From: Syntrophorhabdaceae bacterium
Lineage (GTDB): Bacteria > Desulfobacterota > Syntrophorhabdia > Syntrophorhabdales > Syntrophorhabdaceae
DNA length: 55,023 nucleotides
Direction: 5' to 3'
Assembly (NCBI GenBank): GCA_017992765.1
Contig: JAGOOA010000008.1
Location: 1 to 55,023, forward strand
In this document: piece by piece, positions 22,015 through 44,490 of the stretch
How the letters are laid out: every line of letters starts with the position of its first letter
Position numbering within the stretch: the first letter of the stretch is position 1
Made by a program: the position numbers and the translations under genes
The notes under the pieces: model-generated
Databases searched by the model: none
The model's input: only the letters and a program-made list of their open reading frames with translations
What the model was told of the DNA's origin: nothing

Positions 22015-23013
22015 ATGGACCAGGGACCATACATAGTTGACATCTTCCGCCACGGTGATGCAGAGGGCGTAGCGCAGCTATTCAGAACCGTGTACGGGGA
22101 AGGCTATCCCGCAAAGCACGTCTACCATCCCGACCAGCTTATTGCCGCCTTTGAAAAAAAAGAGAATATCCCCGTTGTCGCCCGTACGCCGGAAGGGAAG
22201 ATCATCGGTTATGTGGCGCTCTTTACATCAACGCCGAACCCGAAGCTCTACGAGGCGGGCCAGGGCCTGGTCCTGCCCGAATACAGGGGTTCCGGGGTCT
22301 CCTCGGCGATAACGAGCCATGTCTATGAAATAGTGGGCAAGCAATTTGCTACGGATGGCGTATTCGGGGAACCTGTCTGCAATCATGTCTATATGCAGAA
22401 GACCTGCATAGCCCTTCAATGCATCGAGACCGCGATCGAAGTCGACCTTATGCCGGCAGAGTCATATACCAAAGAAGGGAGTGCATCAGGAAGGGTTGCC
22501 GTGCTCGGTACATTCAGGATACACAGACCGCTATTGTCTGCCGCCCACATACCTGAGATATATCAAGAACAGTCAAGGTACATCTATGACGGGCTCAACG
22601 ACCCGAGGACCCTGATCGCGTCCGCCGGCAAGACCCCCCATGCGCTGAAAACGGAAATATCATGCCAAACCTTCGATTTCGCAAAGGTTGCAAGGTTGTC
22701 CTTCCTGCAAACGGGCCGCGATCTTGAAAATGCACTGAATACGCTTGAGAAAGATCTTTCCGCCCGCAATATTACCGTGATACAGGCGTGGCTGAAACTG
22801 GGCGAGCCCTGGGTCGGCGAGGCCGCAGCGCTGCTCAGAAAAAGGGGGTACTTTTTCGGCGGCATCCTCCCCAGGTGGTTCGGGGAAGACGGGATGCTCA
22901 TGCAGAAGGTCATGGCACGGCCGAACTGGGATGGGATCATGCTCTATACTGACCGGGCAAAGCAGATACTGGAGTTTGTGCACAACGATTGGGCGGATAT
23001 TGACAGGCAATAG
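22015..23013 (+). CDS. GNAT-type N-acetyltransferase-like protein
   Basis: A 332-aa protein with an N-terminal GNAT domain (about 8-150). The acetyl-CoA loop is LVLPEYRGSGVSSAI. The C-terminal half (about 180-330) is a second, less familiar domain that may be a degenerate GNAT fold. It begins the run GNAT-STAS-kinase-TolC, with a strong AGGAAGGAG site before the ATG. The substrate is unknown. Its position next to a partner-switching pair suggests a regulatory or stress-response role; this is inference. Confidence 0.78.
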   Translation: MDQGPYIVDIFRHGDAEGVAQLFRTVYGEGYPAKHVYHPDQLIAAFEKKENIPVVARTPEGKIIGYVALFTSTPNPKLYEAGQGLVLPEYRGSGVSSAITSHVYEIVGKQFATDGVFGEPVCNHVYMQKTCIALQCIETAIEVDLMPAESYTKEGSASGRVAVLGTFRIHRPLLSAAHIPEIYQEQSRYIYDGLNDPRTLIASAGKTPHALKTEISCQTFDFAKVARLSFLQTGRDLENALNTLEKDLSARNITVIQAWLKLGEPWVGEAAALLRKRGYFFGGILPRWFGEDGMLMQKVMARPNWDGIMLYTDRAKQILEFVHNDWADIDRQ

Positions 23014-23084: not shown

Positions 23085-23417
23085 ATGGAGATAACCACCC
23101 GTCAGGAAAAGGACGCAACGGTTGTTATGGTTCAGGGAAGGATAGACGCAGTCACTGCCCCTGAATTCGAGAACCATCTCTCAAGTCTTATTGAAAAGGG
23201 CGGCCGGAGATTTATCATCAACCTCGGCGCGCTGGAGTATATCAGCAGCGCCGGCCTCCGCAGCATCCTTGCCACGGCAAAGAGATTAAAAACCGAACAG
23301 GGCGATATCAGGTTTTCGGGACTCCAGGGTCCTGTTGAAGAGGTGTTTAAGATATCCGGTTTTTATTCGATCTTCAAGATATTTGATTCAGACGCATCGG
23401 CCATCAACGACGTGTAA
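23085..23417 (+). CDS. STAS-domain anti-sigma factor antagonist
   Basis: A 110-aa single STAS domain with the phosphorylation-site loop YISSAGLR (Ser54/Ser55). Proteins of this type (SpoIIAA/RsbV) release a target by binding an anti-sigma or switch kinase when unphosphorylated. The kinase-like partner follows after 4 bp. AAGGAG lies upstream of the ATG. The SpoIIE-type phosphatase at 31050 could be the enzyme that reactivates it, although the two loci are 8 kb apart. Confidence 0.92.
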   Translation: MEITTRQEKDATVVMVQGRIDAVTAPEFENHLSSLIEKGGRRFIINLGALEYISSAGLRSILATAKRLKTEQGDIRFSGLQGPVEEVFKISGFYSIFKIFDSDASAINDV

Positions 23418-23421
23418 TATT

Positions 23422-23841
23422 GTGGAAGTCCTGTCAACAATAAGAGTTCCCGCAAAGCTTGACCATCTCCATGCGTTGATCGATATGGTGAGCAATTGCG
23501 CGAAAGAACAGGGTTTGGGGGAAAAGCGCATCAATGAGATAGAGATAGCCGCCGAAGAAGCCCTCGTCAACATCTTTCATTACGCTTACCAGGGGCAGGA
23601 AGGAGACGTGGAGATCTCGTGCAGGGTTGAGCGCGGCAGAACATTCATAATTGAGATCATTGACTCCGGAATGCCTTTCGACCCTTTTTCGGTCTCGGAA
23701 CCAGACACGACCCTGGATGTCGCTGAGCGGCAGATCGGCGGAATAGGCGTCTTCCTCATAAAAAAACTGATGGACGAAGTGACGTACCAAAGGGATAACA
23801 ATAAGAACATATTGAAATTGGCCGTTAATCTCAAAACATAA
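23422..23841 (+). CDS. RsbW-like anti-sigma regulatory kinase (HATPase)
   Basis: About 139 aa from the GTG at 23422. The frame stays open upstream, but that part overlaps the STAS gene. It has the GHKL ATPase N-box (EIAAEEALVNIFHYAY), DSGMPFDP and the G-rich box GGIGVFLIKKLMDEV. These kinases phosphorylate a STAS partner and bind a sigma factor or other output. No sigma factor gene lies nearby, so the output could be something else, including the efflux genes that follow 12 bp later. Confidence 0.88.
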   Translation: MEVLSTIRVPAKLDHLHALIDMVSNCAKEQGLGEKRINEIEIAAEEALVNIFHYAYQGQEGDVEISCRVERGRTFIIEIIDSGMPFDPFSVSEPDTTLDVAERQIGGIGVFLIKKLMDEVTYQRDNNKNILKLAVNLKT

Positions 23842-23853
23842 AGGGATGATACA

Positions 23854-25410
23854 ATGTTATCGCATGTATTTTTGATAAGGACCGTCATATTCCTTATCGT
23901 TCTTTGTATCTCTATTCCTTCTTCCTTCGGTCAGGTAAAAAATGCTGAGACGACAAAGGTTACGGATGTGCAGGAAGATCAGCAGGACGTCAAAAAGCTT
24001 ACCCTTGCCGATTGTGTCATCCTGGCGCTTAAGAATAATATTGACCTCAAGAACACATTCCTCAACAGGATAACCCAGAGGTACGGCGTGAAGGTTGCGG
24101 AAAACAAGTTCAGGCCACAGGGGAATATAGCCCTTACGACGAAACGGAGCTCGATCTATCCCGATGTCGATACAGGAAGGACCACCGGCTCAACCCAGAT
24201 GGCAAATACCAGCGTGACCCTCAATGTACCCACAGGCGGCAACTTCGCCCTCGCCTGGAACAACCAGGCGACAAAGTCCGATGTCGCCGAGGTATATGGG
24301 TACAATCCTTCGTGGACGCTATCATATACCCAGCCTCTTCTCAAAAACGCCGGGAAAGAGGTGGCAACCGCTGATCTTGTTATCGCCCGCATCAACGAGG
24401 AAGGCAACATCCTTGACCTGAAAGACGCCATCATCAATACGATCACGAACGTATCAACCCAGTACAGGGACTACGTAAGGGCGCTGCGTCAGCTCGAAAT
24501 AGACGAAAAATCCATGGAGACCACGAAAAAGACCCACGAATTCAATAAAGCAATGGTGGCGGCAGGAAGGATGGCGGAATCGGAGCTCCTTCAGTCCGAG
24601 GCCGGTATCGCATCACAGAATATAACCATCGTCCAGGATAAGAACAGCATTGACAGTGCACGGCTTGCTCTTCTGCAAACGCTCAATCTCGACAGCCAGA
24701 CCCGGTTTGAGCCTGTAGAGGAAACAGAGACCGCGATCAAGCCACCCACATTTCAGGAAGCCATGGAGATCGCCCGGAAGAACAGGTCCGATTATCTGAA
24801 GCAATTGCAAAGCCTCGAAACGGCAAAGCTGCGGTACACCGTTGCAAAGAACGGCCTCCTCTGGGATCTCTCGGTCACCGCAGGCACAGGGAGCAGCATG
24901 ACCAACCCACGGTTCGGGGCTGCCTACAGCAGCGCCGGGAGCCTCGGAAAAAGCGACTGGAACGTCGGCGCCCTCCTTACGATACCCCTTAACACCACGG
25001 ACCTTACGAACACCTATCTCAATGCGAAGGTAGCGTATGACACGCAGAAAAACAACCTCGTCAAACTTGAAAAGACCGTCGAGGCGGATATTCTCAATGC
25101 CATCAGGAACGTTGAGATGCAGTACCAGCAGCTGAAGCTTGCAAAGTACAATTCTGACCTGGAGCAGAAAAAGTTCGATGCCGAGAATGAAAAGATGAAG
25201 GTCGGCAGGAGCAGCCTCTTCCAGCTTCTCAGCTTCCAGAACAGCCTTGTTACCGCAAATAACACCGAGCTTTCTGCGCTCATCTCTTACCTTAACGCTT
25301 TGACAACGCTCGATCAGAAGCTCGGTACGACCCTGAAGACATGGAATATAGACGTTAAAAAGGATGATGACGAGGTAAAGATGGCGGCAAAGGAGGCCCG
25401 CGGGAAATGA
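23854..25410 (+). CDS. TolC-family outer-membrane channel protein
   Basis: A 518-aa protein with a signal peptide (about 1-27, ending near SSFGQ). It has the paired OEP domains with long helices, including LTLADCVILALKNNIDLKN near the N-terminus. It would form a trimeric exit duct through the outer membrane for the adaptor and MacB-type pump encoded next. It starts 12 bp after the RsbW-like gene. A second TolC homologue in the window (39446-40738) serves the RND pump, and the two differ in sequence. Confidence 0.9.
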   Translation: MLSHVFLIRTVIFLIVLCISIPSSFGQVKNAETTKVTDVQEDQQDVKKLTLADCVILALKNNIDLKNTFLNRITQRYGVKVAENKFRPQGNIALTTKRSSIYPDVDTGRTTGSTQMANTSVTLNVPTGGNFALAWNNQATKSDVAEVYGYNPSWTLSYTQPLLKNAGKEVATADLVIARINEEGNILDLKDAIINTITNVSTQYRDYVRALRQLEIDEKSMETTKKTHEFNKAMVAAGRMAESELLQSEAGIASQNITIVQDKNSIDSARLALLQTLNLDSQTRFEPVEETETAIKPPTFQEAMEIARKNRSDYLKQLQSLETAKLRYTVAKNGLLWDLSVTAGTGSSMTNPRFGAAYSSAGSLGKSDWNVGALLTIPLNTTDLTNTYLNAKVAYDTQKNNLVKLEKTVEADILNAIRNVEMQYQQLKLAKYNSDLEQKKFDAENEKMKVGRSSLFQLLSFQNSLVTANNTELSALISYLNALTTLDQKLGTTLKTWNIDVKKDDDEVKMAAKEARGK

Positions 25411-25450
25411 ATCGGCAGGATAGCCATATGATCACGACACCGGAGGCAAT

Positions 25451-27232
25451 GTGGCAGCCCGGGAAATAGTCTACAGGAACATCCTGGAAAATATGCGCGA
25501 CGGCGTAGTAACCATCGGTGCCGACGGCACGATCATCACCTTCAACAACGCCGCGGAGACCATCCTCGGCATGAAGAGCGCGGACATCGTTGACAGGACC
25601 TTCGGCGAGGTCTTCCTCGCCATGGAAGAGAACGATGAGTTCAACCAGGCAATATTGAACGCCGTCTATGAATCGGCAATGGTGCATAACGCAAAGGTCC
25701 GGTATAAAACGGCAGAAAAGATCCTGACCCTCAATGTTACCACCTCCTTTCTCGGGTCGCCTGAGGAAAAAGAAGGCGAGAAAAAGGCCGTCATCGTCGT
25801 GTTCCAGGATGTGACCGAGGTCGAGCACCTGCAGGAAATAGAGTCACAGCTCACCGAAGAGCTGAAGGCACAGCATAAAGAGCTCCAGGACGCATACGTC
25901 AGCCTCGAAGGGGCGAACACAAACCTCCAGGCGGCCCTGAAAAAGGTCCACATGATCCGTATTGCCTTCACGGCCTTTGTCATCGTGCTTTTTGTGGTCC
26001 TGGGCCTCGTCAGCTGGAAAAGGATCATACCTCCCGGCAGCAGGCCCGCGCAGGAAGCCCGCGCAGAGATGAAAGATCCTTCCCAGATGAGAACCTTCGT
26101 TGTGGGCGAACAGAGATTAACCGATTCGATCGCCCTCAAAGGGTCCCTGAAGCCCATCAAGGTGGTCAACATTACAAGCCCCTTCACCGGCAAGGTTAAG
26201 GAGAAATACTTCCAGTACGGCCAGCCCGTTCAAAAAGGGCAGCTGCTTCTCAAGATGGATGCAATAGAAACGGAGACAAAGCACAGGGAAGCCAACGTCG
26301 CTTACATCAAGGCCGTTGAAAAGATGAGGGAAGCGGATAAGTGGGACACCGCCGACGAGGTGACAAAGGCAAGGCGGTCAGCCACTAAATCGAAGATGAC
26401 ACTTGACACCGCGAAGAGCAAATTCGAGCAAAGCGACATCTTATTTAAAAAAGGCTACATTTCCTCAACCGATTACAATTCCGATAAACAACAGTACGAA
26501 ACGGCCCAGATGGACTACGACGCATCGCTCCAGGAACTGCAGACAACCATCAACAAGGGCAAAGGGGATAACTACAAGGTAACAAAGATAGAGCTGGATA
26601 ATGCGAGGACCAAGCTTCAAGTGCTGGAGCTGCAGCTGCAAAAGGCGAATGTAGTCGCACCGGTATCCGGTACGGTAGTCATGCCCGACGCGGGCTCCGA
26701 TAAGGATAAAAAAGGGAAGCTCATAGAGGTCGGTATGCCTTTTACGGAAGGGGACCTGCTCATGTCCATCGGCGACACAGGGGGGTTCTCGGTAACGGCC
26801 GAGGTAGACGAGATGGAGGTGCTCAAGCTCAAAAAGGGGCAGGAGGCTGTGATCACCGGCGATGCCTTTTCGGGCATAGCCCTGAAAGGGACCGTCTCAC
26901 ACGTATCATCGCAGGCTTCAACGGGTGAAGGCTTAAAAAAGACGCCTGTCTATGCAATAATCATATCTGTCGAACAATCTCCCCCGGAGGCACGGGAGAA
27001 GCTGCTTCTCGGGATGTCCTGCAAGGTACAGATCACAACCATGGACAGGCCGGGCTCCCTCATGGTCCCGATCCAGGCAGTCAGCATGGAAGGCAGGGAC
27101 CGTTACGTGACCACGAAGGATAAGAAGACAAGCGAGATCAAAAAGATCAAGGTGGAAACAGGCATCACCACCCTTGATTCCGTGGAGATAACAAAGGGAT
27201 TGGCGAAAGGAGATGAAATACTGCTCCCCTGA
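25451..27232 (+). CDS. PAS-domain/periplasmic adaptor (HlyD/MacA-like) fusion protein
   Basis: A 593-aa protein. Residues 5-125 form a PAS domain (ILENMRDGVVTIGADG), 123-166 a coiled coil, 171-189 one membrane span, and 215-593 a membrane-fusion adaptor. The adaptor has lipoyl halves around VNITSPFTGKVKE and NVVAPVSGTVV, a helical hairpin, and a beta-barrel. The PAS part would lie in the cytoplasm and the adaptor in the periplasm. The start is a GTG with GGAGG 4-5 bp upstream, so the PAS part is translated with the rest. Known MacA proteins lack a PAS domain. The fusion suggests the pump is gated or reports by a cytoplasmic signal. ABC genes follow at 6 bp. Confidence 0.9.
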   Translation: MAAREIVYRNILENMRDGVVTIGADGTIITFNNAAETILGMKSADIVDRTFGEVFLAMEENDEFNQAILNAVYESAMVHNAKVRYKTAEKILTLNVTTSFLGSPEEKEGEKKAVIVVFQDVTEVEHLQEIESQLTEELKAQHKELQDAYVSLEGANTNLQAALKKVHMIRIAFTAFVIVLFVVLGLVSWKRIIPPGSRPAQEARAEMKDPSQMRTFVVGEQRLTDSIALKGSLKPIKVVNITSPFTGKVKEKYFQYGQPVQKGQLLLKMDAIETETKHREANVAYIKAVEKMREADKWDTADEVTKARRSATKSKMTLDTAKSKFEQSDILFKKGYISSTDYNSDKQQYETAQMDYDASLQELQTTINKGKGDNYKVTKIELDNARTKLQVLELQLQKANVVAPVSGTVVMPDAGSDKDKKGKLIEVGMPFTEGDLLMSIGDTGGFSVTAEVDEMEVLKLKKGQEAVITGDAFSGIALKGTVSHVSSQASTGEGLKKTPVYAIIISVEQSPPEAREKLLLGMSCKVQITTMDRPGSLMVPIQAVSMEGRDRYVTTKDKKTSEIKKIKVETGITTLDSVEITKGLAKGDEILLP

Positions 27233-27238
27233 CCGAAC

Positions 27239-27904
27239 ATGCTGCGCTTAACTGACATACGAAAATCCTACCAGGTCGGGCCTACAGCGGTAGATGTGCT
27301 GAAGGGCATCTCCCTCACTGTTGAAAAGGGCGAGCTCCTCTCCATCATCGGCCCTTCCGGGAGCGGAAAATCAACGCTCATGAACATCCTGGGGCTTCTG
27401 GAACAGCCTTCCGCCGGGACATACTCGGTAGAGGATACGAGAATAACCTATGATGACGACCGGACGCTTTCAAGCCTGCGGAACAAGATGATCGGTTTTG
27501 TTTTCCAACAATATAACTTGTTGCCGCGATTAACGGCCGTCGACAACGTCGGCCTGCCTCTTATCTACCGGGGGATCAGCGAACAAGAGATAACGGAACG
27601 TTCAATGGAATATATCAAAAAGGTTGAAATGCAGGAACGATCCCACCATAAACCAACGGAGCTCTCCGGCGGGCAGCAGCAAAGGATCGCGATAGCCCGC
27701 GCGCTCGTGGGTAACCCCGCGCTCATCCTCGCTGACGAGCCGACGGGGGCGCTCGACACCCATACGGGGCAGGAGATCATGAGCCTGTTCAAGCGATTAA
27801 ACGAAGAGGAAGGGATCACGATCGTGGTCATCACCCACGATCCCAAGATAGCGGCGCAATGCAGACGTAAGGTCGAACTGCGGGACGGCATTATTACCGG
27901 GTGA
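27239..27904 (+). CDS. MacB/LolD-type ABC transporter ATP-binding protein
   Basis: A 221-aa ABC ATPase with Walker A IIGPSGSGKST, Q-loop VFQQYNLLPRLTAVDN, signature LSGGQQQR, Walker B LILADEPTGALD and switch His in VITHDP. It belongs to the MacB/LolD/FtsE group. It powers the FtsX-type permease encoded 3 bp downstream. In E. coli MacB both parts are fused; here they are separate genes. Confidence 0.95.
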   Translation: MLRLTDIRKSYQVGPTAVDVLKGISLTVEKGELLSIIGPSGSGKSTLMNILGLLEQPSAGTYSVEDTRITYDDDRTLSSLRNKMIGFVFQQYNLLPRLTAVDNVGLPLIYRGISEQEITERSMEYIKKVEMQERSHHKPTELSGGQQQRIAIARALVGNPALILADEPTGALDTHTGQEIMSLFKRLNEEEGITIVVITHDPKIAAQCRRKVELRDGIITG

Positions 27905-27907
27905 AAA

Positions 27908-29086
27908 ATGATCATTAAGGCAAATGTCAAGGAGGCGCTGAAAAGCCTTATAACAGCAAAGCAGCGCACGATCCTCGCCCTCATCGGCATTGTCATCGGT
28001 ATCGGGTCTGTCATCGGTATGGTATCGATCGGTACGGTCGTACAGAACGAAGCGCTGAAGCAGTTCAGGGACATGGGCATCGATATCGTCTCGGTCACAA
28101 AGGATTACGAGCGCCAGGGCAGCGACGAGGGGTTCAATATCGACCACATCTACGGCCTTCCAGGTTACAGCACCCTGGTCAAAAAGGTGGCGCCTTATAT
28201 CGTCTCGAGCACGCAGTATTCGTACGCGGGCAAAGACCTGTACGTCGAGCTCATGGGCGTCGATGAATCGTTCTTCGATCTCAACAAGCTATACATCCGG
28301 GAAGGGCGCCTGCTGTCCGACCTCGACAGGAACAGGTTTTTCTGCATCATAGGCGCGGAAACCGCTGATATGCTGCAAAAGGCAGGGATCAAAGATATCA
28401 TCGGCAGGCAATTTTTGTTCGGCGAGCGCATCTACACCGTAGTGGGCATCCTGAAAAGCCTCCCGGAGGGCGGCGGCATGAGGCCGTCCGGCATCAACAG
28501 GAGCGCCATTGCCCACATCACCACGGCCATGCGCGCCTTTACCACGCGTGACATCACCACCTTCATGGCAAGGGTGGGCACACAAGACAGCAAGGCGGTT
28601 AAGGCCGTCATAGAGAACTATTTCAGCAAAAAAGCAGGGGGGCTCCGCGTAAGGGTACGCACCGCGGAAGAATTGATAGCCCAGATGCAAAAACAGATGC
28701 AGCTTTTCACCCTGCTCCTCGGCGCAATAGGGAGCATCGCCCTCATAGTCGGGGGCATCGGCGTCATGAACGTCATGCTCATCTCGGTAACGGAGAGACG
28801 CAAGGAGATAGGCATACGAAGGGCTCTCGGCGCCCAGAGAACCGATATAGAGGCCCAGTTCATCATAGAATCGGTCACCCTCTGCTTCGTTGGCGGCATC
28901 ATCGGGATAATCCTTGGGATCATCATTTCATACGTCTTTTCCCATTTCTCCAAATGGGAATTTCTCATATCCCAATCCGCGATCATTCTTGGCTTTTGCG
29001 TTGCGACGGCGGTGGGGGTCTTTTTCGGCTACTACCCTGCACGCTCTGCATCGCGCCTCGACCCGGCAGCGGCGCTGAGGGAGTGA
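27908..29086 (+). CDS. MacB/FtsX-type ABC transporter permease
   Basis: A 392-aa protein with one N-terminal membrane helix (about 18-42), a large periplasmic MacB core domain (to about 255) and three C-terminal helices of the FtsX domain (VGGIGVMNVMLISVTERRKEIGIRRALGA lies around the second, cited here by its ends only). With the ATPase, PAS-adaptor and TolC it would complete a tripartite mechanotransmission pump. The substrate is unknown. Repeat arrays begin at 29090, directly after its stop. Confidence 0.93.
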   Translation: MIIKANVKEALKSLITAKQRTILALIGIVIGIGSVIGMVSIGTVVQNEALKQFRDMGIDIVSVTKDYERQGSDEGFNIDHIYGLPGYSTLVKKVAPYIVSSTQYSYAGKDLYVELMGVDESFFDLNKLYIREGRLLSDLDRNRFFCIIGAETADMLQKAGIKDIIGRQFLFGERIYTVVGILKSLPEGGGMRPSGINRSAIAHITTAMRAFTTRDITTFMARVGTQDSKAVKAVIENYFSKKAGGLRVRVRTAEELIAQMQKQMQLFTLLLGAIGSIALIVGGIGVMNVMLISVTERRKEIGIRRALGAQRTDIEAQFIIESVTLCFVGGIIGIILGIIISYVFSHFSKWEFLISQSAIILGFCVATAVGVFFGYYPARSASRLDPAAALRE

Positions 29087-29089
29087 AAC

Positions 29090-29250
29090 AGCTCACGGCT
29101 CATAGCTCATGGCTCATAGAAGATCATATATCGAGAGAAAGGCGGCTCATTGCGAACCGGATGCTTGATACTGGATACTGGTCACTCGATACTCGATTAT
29201 CGATTATCGATAATCGACGCTGATAGCTGGCTGCTGATAGCTGATGGCTG
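29090..29250. repeat. 7-bp word arrays, including 13 in-register heptamers
   Basis: 29090-29119 is four words of the ggctcat/agctcat type. 29160-29250 is 13 consecutive 7-bp words with no register break. They shift from gatactg through gattatc to atagctg, so the E and D word families pass into each other. The array ends 16 bp before the chagasin-like start, and an upstream open frame here is repeat-derived. Confidence 0.93.
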
Positions 29251-29266
29251 GTTTATGGAGGATGGA

Positions 29267-29677
29267 ATGAAGAAATCGGTTTTAACAGGCTTTGTGATGA
29301 CCTGCCTGCTGGTCCTGTTCATATCCCATGGATGCGCTCAGGAATTATCCATGAAACAGAAAAAGGTCTTCAGCGGTTCCGAGGCCCCCTTTGCGATGAA
29401 GGTTGGCGACGAGTTCGTCCTGACCCTTGAATCAAACCCCTCAACCGGCTATCTGTGGCGGCTTGTTGTAAAACCCGACGAGAGTACGGTGCAGCTTGTC
29501 AGCTCAGAGTACAGGGCGGCCCCTGACACAAACCGCGTAGGGGCGGGAGGGAACGAGGTCTGGACGTTCCTGGCAACGGGCAAAGGGAAGGCCGAGATAA
29601 GCCTCATATACATCCGCCCCTGGGAGAAGGACAAGCCTCCCGCAAAGACAGCGCGGGTAATAATTATTGTTGAATAA
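29267..29677 (+). CDS. Chagasin-family (I42) cysteine peptidase inhibitor, exported
   Basis: A 136-aa protein from the ATG at 29267 (GGAGG upstream). It has a signal peptide (about 1-25), perhaps a lipoprotein since a Cys lies in SHGCAQ. All three inhibitory loops of the chagasin family are visible: NPSTGY, VGAGGNE and IRPWE. It would block papain-like cysteine peptidases in the periplasm or outside. The frame opens further upstream, but only through 7-bp repeats. It may share the pump operon, 180 bp earlier, or be independent. Confidence 0.9.
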   Translation: MKKSVLTGFVMTCLLVLFISHGCAQELSMKQKKVFSGSEAPFAMKVGDEFVLTLESNPSTGYLWRLVVKPDESTVQLVSSEYRAAPDTNRVGAGGNEVWTFLATGKGKAEISLIYIRPWEKDKPPAKTARVIIIVE

Positions 29678-31049: not shown

Positions 31050-33005
31050 TTAGTTGCCTTTATACGTTATCATCATCATCGTGATGTCGTCGGACTGGGG
31101 GGCGCTGCCGGCAAATCCCGTTATCTGCTCCATCACCGCACGTACCGTTTGTTCAACGCCTTTGCCCGGGAATTCTGATAGCTCTTTTTGGAGGCGCTCC
31201 TCGGAGAAAAGCTCGTTCCTTTCGTTCATCGCCTCCGTGACCCCATCGGTATAGAGGAAGAGCGAGTCGCCCGGCCCGAGCGTAACGCTCCTCGCAGTAT
31301 ATTGAGCCTCTTCCATGGCGCCGACAAGGAGTTCGCCGGACGTCCCAAGGTAAGCAACATCTCCGTTCCCCTTTATCAGCAATGGCGGATTGTGCCCTCC
31401 GTTCGTATATTGCACCTCTCCGGTCTTTACGTTCAGGATCCCGCAAAAGACCGTTACGAACATGCTCATATCGTTGCCTATGCAGAGGTCTTCGTTCACC
31501 CTTGAGATGATCTTGTCGGTGGCAAGGCCCATTGTTGCCTTGGCCTTGAGAAGGGTCTTCGTCAGCGCCATGAACAGCGCTGCCGGGATGCCTTTTCCCG
31601 AAACGTCCGCGATGACAAAGCAGAGGTGTTCATCATCTACAAAGAAAAAGTCGTAAAAATCCCCCCCGATCTCCCTCGCCGGCTTTATCGTGGCATAAAT
31701 ATCAAATTCTGCCCTTTCCGGATAGGGAGGAAATTTTTTCGGCAGGATGCCCATCTGTATGTCGTGGGCGATCTTCAGCTCGCTCTCCATGCGCTCCCTC
31801 GACGCGGTCGCCTCTGTGAGCTCGCCGATGTATTCCTTCAGGGATTCCCTCATAAAGCTGAACGCCTCCGAGAGCCTTCCCACCTCATCGCCCGTTTTCA
31901 CGGGCGGCAATTCAATATCGAAGTTTCCCGCCCCGATATGTTCCGTCGCCTTCGCCATATGTCTCAACGGCCCCGTTATGGACCTCGCGATAAACACAAC
32001 TGCCACGGCAAGAAGGACAAGGCCGGCGATCCCCAGGAAAAGCACGATCTGGTTGAGGCTTGTGATATCCGCCATCAGCTCGTCCTGCGGGAAGAGCACG
32101 CCGAGGGACCAGCCGCTTGATGTGATCGGCACATAGGCCATCCAGCAGGATTTTCCGGTAACCGCGCTCTTGACCCACATGGGCGCAACGCCATGCCCTC
32201 CCTTTATCATCTTCCGCCCTACATCCCTGAGCTGCGGGTCCTCTCGCGCCTCTGCGACCGTAAAGATCGTCTCGTTCATGATGAGCTCTTTCAAGGGGTG
32301 CGTCACAAAGGTCCCGTTCTTGGATATCAAAAACCCGTATCCCGACTGAAGTATTTTGATGGAAGAGACAATATTCCGCAGGTTCTCAAGCGAGATGTCT
32401 ACAACGATGACACCCGCGATCTGCCTTTTGTTATCGACCTTCTTATAGAAAGGGACGGAGTAGGAGGACATCAGGATGCCGCCCCCCTCTCCGAAATAGG
32501 GTTCTACCCATTCAGGCCGCTCGATCTCTTTTGGTATCTGGTACCAGTCCCACAAAAAGTAGTTGTAATGCTCGTCGAGGTACTTAAAATTTATCGCCCC
32601 GTAGGCCTTATAGAAGTATGGGGCGAAGAACTTCTTGTCCTTTCTGAACATATACGGCTCAAAGGCGATAGCGGCCCCGTATATCTCCGGGTTTTTTTCA
32701 ACGATCGCGTAGAGGACCTGGAAGAGCTCCTGTTCATCGTTTGTGCTGTTCTCAAGAAAGTAGGCGATATTCTCGGGCACCTTCTGTGTGGCGCTCAGCA
32801 ATGTCCCGATCTTGTTCGTCGTCGTCATGATGAGGTTGCCGGCATTCTCCTCTATCCCTTTTGCTATCATCTGCCTGGAAACAAAATAGTTGTAGGTAAA
32901 GATAGCGGTAAATATACAGGCGCTGCTCAGCGTAAAGAAGAGGACAAGCTTGAATGCTATGCCTTTATTTCTCAGCATATTTTGTACACTCTTTATAAAA
33001 ATCAT
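31050..33005 (-). CDS. SpoIIE-type (PP2C) sensor phosphatase with Cache and HAMP domains
   Basis: A 651-aa inner-membrane protein. A first membrane helix (about 18-38) and a second (about 310-335) enclose a periplasmic dCache-like sensor. A HAMP region (about 335-390) follows, then a PP2C/SpoIIE phosphatase domain with ARE-IGGDFYDFF, VIADVSGKGIPAALFMA and DSLFLYTDGVTEA. Such enzymes dephosphorylate STAS antagonists. Its start overlaps the binding-protein gene by 41 bp (14 bp if the ATG at 32978 is used), so the two are coupled. The STAS/RsbW-like pair at 23085-23841 is a possible target. Confidence 0.93.
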   Translation of the reverse strand: MIFIKSVQNMLRNKGIAFKLVLFFTLSSACIFTAIFTYNYFVSRQMIAKGIEENAGNLIMTTTNKIGTLLSATQKVPENIAYFLENSTNDEQELFQVLYAIVEKNPEIYGAAIAFEPYMFRKDKKFFAPYFYKAYGAINFKYLDEHYNYFLWDWYQIPKEIERPEWVEPYFGEGGGILMSSYSVPFYKKVDNKRQIAGVIVVDISLENLRNIVSSIKILQSGYGFLISKNGTFVTHPLKELIMNETIFTVAEAREDPQLRDVGRKMIKGGHGVAPMWVKSAVTGKSCWMAYVPITSSGWSLGVLFPQDELMADITSLNQIVLFLGIAGLVLLAVAVVFIARSITGPLRHMAKATEHIGAGNFDIELPPVKTGDEVGRLSEAFSFMRESLKEYIGELTEATASRERMESELKIAHDIQMGILPKKFPPYPERAEFDIYATIKPAREIGGDFYDFFFVDDEHLCFVIADVSGKGIPAALFMALTKTLLKAKATMGLATDKIISRVNEDLCIGNDMSMFVTVFCGILNVKTGEVQYTNGGHNPPLLIKGNGDVAYLGTSGELLVGAMEEAQYTARSVTLGPGDSLFLYTDGVTEAMNERNELFSEERLQKELSEFPGKGVEQTVRAVMEQITGFAGSAPQSDDITMMMITYKGN

Positions 33006-33987
33006 CGTACCCGGGCGCCTGATTGATCAATCCGTTGCGCATGAGCTCGCCGGCAACCCTGAGGTAATCCTGTTTTGCCAAAGTGCCTATGGCAATGCCT
33101 TTATCGTCCTCGGGCAGGATCAGGTCTTTCATCCTGCTGAGCATCCACTTCTGGTGGACCCTGTTCGCAGGGACATTCGCCATCGCCATGTACTTGAGCA
33201 CAATATCCAGCGCCTCGTCAGGATGCTTAAAGGCGTATTGCCAGCCTTCTACCGATGCCTTTGCAAAACTACAGGCAACTGCGGGGTCCTTTTTGAAGCT
33301 CCGCTCGAGGGTATAGATGCCGTCTTCAGGGAAATTCAATCCATACTCGTGGAAGAAAAAGCTTGTCAGCTCATCGGGGTTGACCCCTGCGCTGATGATC
33401 GTGTGATATTCGTTGTACCACATGGCAGACGCCACATCAACGCCGTCCCTGAGAAAAAGGTTCACCGAATAAGACTGGGGAATGATCGTCACGTTAAGGC
33501 CAAATTTCTTGAAAAATGCCAGGGGCTGCAACCGGAATTCGTCCCTCCACATCCCCACCTTTTTACCGTTTATGTCTTCCGGCCTTGTGATGCCCCTGCC
33601 CTTTTTTGCCACCAGCATGAGAGCGGACCTCTGCACGATCTGCGAGATGTTTATGAGCCTTATTCCCTGGGACCGTTTCTGTATCGCCGTGGAAAGCCAC
33701 ACGGTGCCGAAATCCACTTCCTCTTTCTCCAGCAGGTCAACGGGGACGCTCTGCGGCCCTCCCGTTTTTATGGTTAGGTTGATCCCGTGTTTGCGATATA
33801 TGCCTTTTTCAAACGCGACGTAGTAACCGGCAAATTGAGCCTGCGGGCTCCACTGTGGTATGAAGGATGCGTCTTTCAGGACCGGCTCGGCACAAAGCGC
33901 ACCCGCCGGGAAAGAGAGGATCATCGCCGCGAAGGCCAGAAAAAGCAAGGCGTTGATCGTCTGATATTTTATTCCGCTATTGCACAT
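32965..33987 (-). CDS. NMT1/THI5-like periplasmic substrate-binding protein
   Basis: About 340 aa from the ATG at 33987. It has a signal peptide (about 1-32, ending GALCAE) and an NMT1/SsuA-like fold: PQWSPQAQFAGYYVAFEKGIY is shared with THI5/NMT1 pyrimidine- or sulfonate-binding proteins. A TTG at 34020 extends the frame, but it lies inside the promoter spacer. There is no ABC permease or ATPase nearby. Its stop lies inside the start of the sensor phosphatase, so it may present its ligand to that sensor instead of to a transporter. Confidence 0.87.
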   Translation of the reverse strand: MCNSGIKYQTINALLFLAFAAMILSFPAGALCAEPVLKDASFIPQWSPQAQFAGYYVAFEKGIYRKHGINLTIKTGGPQSVPVDLLEKEEVDFGTVWLSTAIQKRSQGIRLINISQIVQRSALMLVAKKGRGITRPEDINGKKVGMWRDEFRLQPLAFFKKFGLNVTIIPQSYSVNLFLRDGVDVASAMWYNEYHTIISAGVNPDELTSFFFHEYGLNFPEDGIYTLERSFKKDPAVACSFAKASVEGWQYAFKHPDEALDIVLKYMAMANVPANRVHQKWMLSRMKDLILPEDDKGIAIGTLAKQDYLRVAGELMRNGLINQAPGYDDFYKECTKYAEK

Positions 33988-33997
33988 CGATATATCT

Positions 33998-34027
33998 ATT
34001 ATTGTTGCATAGGACGACAATAGTCAA
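33998..34027 (-). promoter_or_regulatory. Sigma70-like promoter of the binding protein/phosphatase operon
   Basis: Minus strand TTGACT (34022-34027), an 18-bp spacer and AATAAT (33998-34003). Exactly 10 bp separate the -10 box from the ATG at 33987, so the mRNA would have almost no leader. Confidence 0.65.
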
Positions 34028-44168: not shown

Positions 44169-44348
44169 CCTCCCGTTCCCCTATATCGATTCTTCTTCAC
44201 GTTTTTACCATAAGGAACATGGCGATGCAACGGGTATTTGCCTCCGGCGACAGCATTTTCCGTCCCCTCTCTCCTCAACGCCATGGTCCGTATCAATACT
44301 CCCTGGTGTGCCCGATGAATTTGCTTGACATCGAACACAACTGCTTTC

Positions 44349-44490
44349 GGGAAAGTGCCGTAGCAACTTCGTCCCCTCTCCCCTTGCGGGAAAGTGCCGT
44401 AGCAACTTCGTCCCCTCTCCCCTTGCGGGAAAGTGCCGTAGCAACTTCGTCCCCTCTCCCCTTGCGGGAGAGGGTCAGGGTGAGGGGGGG
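44349..44490. repeat. 39-bp tandem repeat (3 copies plus a partial)
   Basis: A 39-bp unit beginning gggaaagtgccgtagcaac occurs at 44349-44387, 44388-44426 and 44427-44465. From 44466 it passes into gggagagggtcagggtgagg. The arrangement parallels the 38-bp array at 1-190: both end in the A-family hairpin sequence and both carry a private insert between copies of cccctctcccc. The 336-bp gap 44169-44504 has no gene. Confidence 0.93.

Follow-up and report, generated by a model that had tools for sequence, protein, structure and literature searches.

From its sequence, a locus in the 55,023-nucleotide stretch of Syntrophorhabdaceae DNA analysed here (the window) is predicted to encode a MacAB-TolC-like tripartite ABC exporter whose periplasmic adaptor bears a cytoplasmic sensor. 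The parts are known and so is the class of pump; their combination appears to be undescribed. This PAS-adaptor is found beside a signalling pair in several lineages, which suggests that the pump is under direct control of an intracellular signal. In the window, the operon runs in the order STAS, RsbW-like kinase, TolC, PAS-adaptor, ATPase and permease, with short gaps. The relevant features are:

23085-23417, + strand: STAS protein, anti-sigma-factor-antagonist-like, whose gene opens the operon (Pfam STAS, 2.6e-21), with a YISSAGL phospho-acceptor site.
23335-23841, + strand: RsbW-like HATPase_c_2 serine kinase (Pfam, 9.2e-30); the ORF start is over-extended and the domain lies at 23446-23820.
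23854-25410, + strand: TolC-family outer-membrane channel (Pfam OEP, 6.5e-27).
25442-25446, + strand: Shine-Dalgarno GGAGG before the GTG start of the adaptor gene (from sequence; present in 5 of the 7 genomes of the genus).
25451-27232, + strand: PAS-coil-span-adaptor protein of 593 aa, one open frame from GTG at 25451 to TGA at 27232.
25472-25813, + strand: PAS domain, residues 8-121 (Pfam PAS, 5.6e-9; predicted PAS fold).
25814-26023, + strand: continuous helix, residues 122-191, in which a coiled coil (122-168) leads into the membrane span (169-191) (model, hydropathy).
26081-27229, + strand: MacA-type periplasmic adaptor, residues 211-593 (PDB profile, 1.1e-27; Foldseek, 3.5e-25).
27239-27904, + strand: LolD/MacB-type ABC ATPase (Pfam ABC_tran, 1.3e-34; MacB NBD match, 257 bits).
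27908-29086, + strand: MacB-type permease (MacB_PCD and FtsX; Pfam, 3.6e-30 and 2.1e-22).
31050-33005, - strand: dCache-HAMP-SpoIIE (PP2C) phosphatase (Pfam); the same protein lies beside the exporter in locus L118.

The TolC channel, the LolD/MacB-type ATPase and the MacB_PCD-FtsX permease make up the gene set of a MacAB-TolC-type tripartite exporter. Directly 3' of the permease, both in the genus and in L118, there is a Chagasin-type (I42) peptidase inhibitor (window 29150-29677; L118:149-685), a neighbour that might point to peptides or proteins as cargo. Short arrays of 7-base units (GATACTG, CGATATA, ATATCGT, GTATATC and similar), mostly intergenic, are numerous in the window (21817, 21965, 31018, 34084, 35045, 42395, 45878, 52219 and 53190), which also has 38-39-base repeats with CCCCTCTCC at 1-170 and 44344-44469.

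An earlier note, made from the letters alone, had read the frame at 25451-27232 as a PAS domain, a coiled coil, one membrane span and a full adaptor, and Pfam, NCBIfam, hydropathy and structure prediction all bear this out. Pfam domains PAS (PF00989, residues 8-121, 36.4 bits against a cut-off of 22.6), PAS_9, HlyD_D23 (237-488) and HlyD_3 (401-519) each scored above their cut-offs, and so did the NCBIfam models RND_mfp (124.6 bits; cut-off 94.9) and sensory_box (51.6; cut-off 22.9). Hydropathy gave one membrane span, at about residues 168-191, and no hydrophobic segment N-terminal of it. Because no hydrophobic signal precedes the PAS domain and the only span is followed by a periplasmic adaptor, the topology implies that the PAS domain must be cytoplasmic, where the note had placed it. 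The AlphaFold2 single-chain model (mean pLDDT 79, pTM 0.41) shows the PAS domain, a helix unbroken between residues 122 and 191, and the adaptor, whose closest solved relative is MacA, both by PDB profile and by Foldseek, where MacA of MacAB-TolC is the top match. All the domains expected of a MacA-type adaptor of the RND_mfp/HlyD superfamily are present (lipoyl/barrel-sandwich, hairpin, beta-barrel and membrane-proximal), and so is the single N-terminal anchor, the one hydrophobic segment at 168-191. Strictly speaking the protein is not a MacA, since its span is preceded by a PAS domain and a coil and its score with the MacA equivalog was 47.8 bits against a cut-off of 342. Nor did it attain the type_I_hlyD cut-off.

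With E. coli MacA the protein shares the adaptor fold and an N-terminal span with a cytoplasmic N terminus and, as in the MacA operon, a TolC-like channel, a MacB-like ATPase and a permease are encoded together with it. It differs in its PAS domain and coiled coil, MacA having no cytoplasmic domain (PMC13328181), and the locus differs from MacAB in that ATPase and permease are separate genes. HlyD of type I secretion offers another parallel, being an adaptor with a functional cytoplasmic N-terminal extension, which serves in substrate sensing (PMC13328181); that extension, however, is a small one that has not been described as a PAS or GAF domain, and HlyD has HlyB-type transporters as partners.

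The GTG start, which the note had judged good on account of its Shine-Dalgarno site, holds up well: GGAGG stands before it, GTG is kept in 7/7 Syntrophorhabdus genomes, and the frame 5' of it in the window reaches only 9 codons further. Median dN/dS values in the genus were 0.17 for PAS, 0.20 for the coil, 0.11 for the span and 0.10 for the adaptor, the first of which indicates that the PAS part is under purifying selection. A sequencing error joining two genes, which the note had named as a possible source of the fusion, is rejected, as are an assembly join and a frameshift, given that at least 42 genomes share the architecture.

Those genomes came out of searching for the same domain order elsewhere, as the note had proposed. 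Within the phylum, full-length PAS-coil-span-adaptor proteins are present in 17 genera belonging to 11 families; the 42 genomes comprise the seven of Syntrophorhabdus, all with an intact frame, and 7, 16 and 12 genomes from profile searches of three classes (one sequence each cut by a contig end in the searches that gave 7 and 12). The PAS-less orthologue in genomes of the same family had at first suggested an oddity of one genus. This was overturned by a scan of 395 genomes drawn evenly across the phylum with the PAS-less orthologue as query, which revealed further long versions. The distribution is patchy, only 12 of the 395 having any match at 1e-25. Our counts cover one phylum, and uncharacterised entries of the same architecture may well exist in others. 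A plasmid origin is rejected, as plasmid relatives match the adaptor part alone, from about residue 190-225 on.

The pump travels with its adaptor. TolC, PAS-adaptor, ATPase and MacB permease were recognised together in 32 of the 36 PAS loci outside the genus whose neighbourhoods were read; of the other four, three are cut by contig ends and one (L163) has no recognised separate ATPase. Gene order is usually TolC, adaptor, ATPase, MacB permease, with TolC coming last in a divergent paralogue in one genome (G097, locus L123).

What the PAS domain senses was approached through its fold and residues. A PAS-only model (pLDDT 78) matches the PAS domains of FixL, LOV and DOS in the PDB, and these matches show the fold, not which ligand it holds. 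Residues 1-125 contain no cysteine, hence none of the LOV type, and the only histidine of the domain, His79, is not conserved and comes after the Fa helix, in which a haem PAS carries its axial histidine. With no ligand residues found, haem, LOV or other light sensing is rejected, and the redox or light input through haem or flavin put forward in the earlier note is left unsupported. Asp120, at the joint between PAS and coil, is invariant (31/31 sequences) and occupies the position of the DIT/DVT motif in PAS kinases. As in the PAS histidine kinases AtoS, PnpS, WalK and ThkA, the domain ends in D-[VI]-T and runs into a signalling coil; in those proteins, however, the output is a kinase, while here a membrane span intervenes and the output is a periplasmic adaptor. 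The closest PAS relatives elsewhere in the phylum include an apparent PAS histidine kinase.

The same joint has accepted other arrangements. In one relative (G479), the adaptor (L119:7645-9672, 675 aa) has a GAF domain (8.6e-13) in place of PAS, and three genomes of the window's family (G020, G022 and G013) encode PAS-less orthologues that keep coil, span and adaptor. When the adaptor part is analysed by maximum likelihood, a PAS protein is the partner of the GAF protein in the tree (support 99/97), and the sensor-less trio groups at 100/100, nested among the PAS-bearing set. Since both forms nest among PAS-bearing proteins, PAS looks older in the clade on this tree, with one swap and one loss, the deepest branches being unsure from long branches. 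The replacement of PAS by GAF in one relative and its loss in three show that the sensor is a modular part of the adaptor, and swap and loss at a fixed joint fit an input module. The loss in three relatives also shows that the pump can do without PAS, a point against the reading favoured below.

A second signalling element accompanies the exporter in part of its range. In 7 of the 17 genera it has as a neighbour a phosphorylatable STAS protein, in most cases paired with an RsbW-like kinase. The order STAS-RsbW-TolC-adaptor-ATPase-permease of the window recurs in genus g96 (L120, L157-L159, L161), and g43 (L167) has STAS-RsbW-TolC-adaptor before the contig ends; the pair lies 3' of the permease in g284 (L112) and g287 (L111) and nearby in g300 (L118), and in g363 (L164) and L163 a STAS gene lies next to TolC with no RsbW. 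With about 1-6 HATPase_c_2 proteins per genome in this linked set, 5 free-standing kinases were seen within 8 kb of the exporter in the first 15 genera vs 0.13 expected (Poisson P about 2.5e-7, rising to 5e-6 when the window's genus is left out, both values being approximate owing to shared ancestry). The YISSAGL phospho-site is invariant in the 12 exporter-linked STAS proteins, and the kinase motifs EE..VN, D.G and GG.G are kept in 9 aligned RsbW-like kinases, so that the STAS phosphosite serine and the N and G boxes of a partner switch are in place. SpoIIE phosphatases are found near the exporter as well: the window and L118 have the dCache-HAMP-SpoIIE protein, possibly the third arm of the switch, and L111 has a different SpoIIE protein. 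With its conserved serine site, its HATPase_c_2 kinase and a SpoIIE phosphatase nearby, the set resembles the SpoIIAA/RsbV - RsbW partner switches, from which it differs in being linked to an exporter operon with no sigma factor recognised alongside. STAS/RsbW is unlinked in 10 of the 17 genera, some on short contigs, and is therefore not obligatory next to the pump.

Some of these neighbourhoods have further peculiarities. The phosphatase adjoins an NMT1-type binding protein, and the two are kept beside the exporter in two distant genera (window 31050-34020; L118:6644-9647). In genome G577 the exporter has next to it a HATPase-GNAT fusion. At L115:13198-14682 HATPase_c_2 and GNAT form one protein beside the exporter, whereas in the window GNAT (22015-23013) and the RsbW-like kinase have a gene each; the L115 and window loci also have an MFS neighbour in common. 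The lone STAS gene beside the exporter at L164:5100-5459, its phospho-site kept, recalls MlaB, a STAS subunit of an ABC transporter.

How could a PAS domain act on such a pump? In E. coli, a MacA deprived of its cytoplasmic region or its N-terminal span is compromised in stimulating the MacB ATPase, and a Gram-positive MacA without either does not stimulate its MacB (PMC5985334). We favour, at slightly better than even confidence, control from the inside out, in which a ligand or partner at the PAS domain shifts the helix and thereby ATPase stimulation or pump assembly, because PAS sits on the very element that MacA needs to stimulate MacB. By analogy with the MacA hexamer, six adaptor copies would surround the ATPase with PAS domains on its cytoplasmic side. 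A partner protein, or a small ligand from the cytoplasm, would on binding them alter the pitch or register of the 122-191 helix, and this in turn would change adaptor-dependent stimulation of the MacB ATPase, or assembly of the pump. The co-encoded STAS/RsbW pair, which some lineages supplement with a SpoIIE phosphatase, probably gives the same exporter a second input, or takes an output from it, by way of phosphorylation. On this reading the PAS domain would tune the pump, probably together with STAS/RsbW, the ligand and the direction of signalling both being inferred. Of the earlier note's proposal that cytoplasmic state controls the pump, the general idea stands as plausible, supported by the published role of MacA's cytoplasmic end (PMC5985334), and the haem or flavin part of it finds no support.

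The signal might also run from the outside in: the load or assembly state of the exporter would pass through the adaptor helix to the PAS domain, the pump doubling as a sensor, and PAS or the ATPase would then control a STAS/RsbW switch regulating gene expression or some other target. MacA is indeed said to relay substrate state to the nucleotide-binding domains (PMC5985334), and the gene order fits, the exporter operon opening with STAS and RsbW in the window, g96 and g43 and the pair adjoining the exporter in g284 and g287, with a PP2C also close in the window, L111 and L118. We nonetheless think this rather unlikely: many PAS-adaptor genera have no STAS/RsbW nearby, signalling from an adaptor PAS to STAS has no known case, and PAS in kinases mostly serves as an input domain.

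PAS domains often dimerise, and MlaB is a STAS protein that sits on the MlaF ATPase. The PAS domain could thus be an oligomerisation or docking module only, pairing adaptors into a trimer of dimers or docking, for instance, STAS on the ATPase, which would suit the divergent yet retained f18 PAS domains and the STAS gene without RsbW in L164. The GAF domain that takes the place of PAS at the same joint argues instead for a ligand-binding sensory role, although GAF also dimerises, and the invariant STAS phospho-acceptor site speaks against docking alone; we hold this reading, too, to be improbable. 

Least credible is that an internal start at codon 168 yields an ordinary short adaptor, with the full-length protein as a minor form or regulator: this codon is ATG (6) or GTG (1) across the 7 genus members and has a weak Shine-Dalgarno-like AAGG (AAGA in one) a few bases 5', but a start codon is missing at this position in 17/31 family members, the AAGG is explained by conserved KKV codons, and the good GGAGG stands before the GTG start. 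A separate start within codons 165-215, raised in the earlier note as a way of splitting the halves, is accordingly rejected as not conserved across the family, though within this genus codon 168 may still give a minor product.

Inside-out control is our working account of an arrangement for which the open-access literature yielded no described case, either of PAS with an HlyD/MFP protein, adaptor or efflux system or of partner switching with MacB/TolC; PAS or GAF on adaptors goes unmentioned in two recent reviews (PMC13328181 and the accessible part of PMC8277102), the second of which states that the cytoplasmic regions of adaptors are structurally very little known. The N-terminal span of MacA was unseen in the cryo-EM structure and the structural basis of ATPase stimulation was left unsettled (PMC5985334). 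A natural sensor domain at precisely this N-terminal element bears on the question of how MacA stimulates the MacB ATPase, and because nature offers one pump in PAS, GAF and sensor-less forms, that question can be tested directly. The STAS/RsbW linkage suggests that phosphorylation signalling may act on an exporter directly, beyond gene expression. More tentatively, the PAS/GAF adaptor may possibly be a true transmembrane receptor within the pump, coupling a cytoplasmic signal and the STAS/RsbW phosphorylation switch to export; if so, pump, sensor and regulator would be one device.
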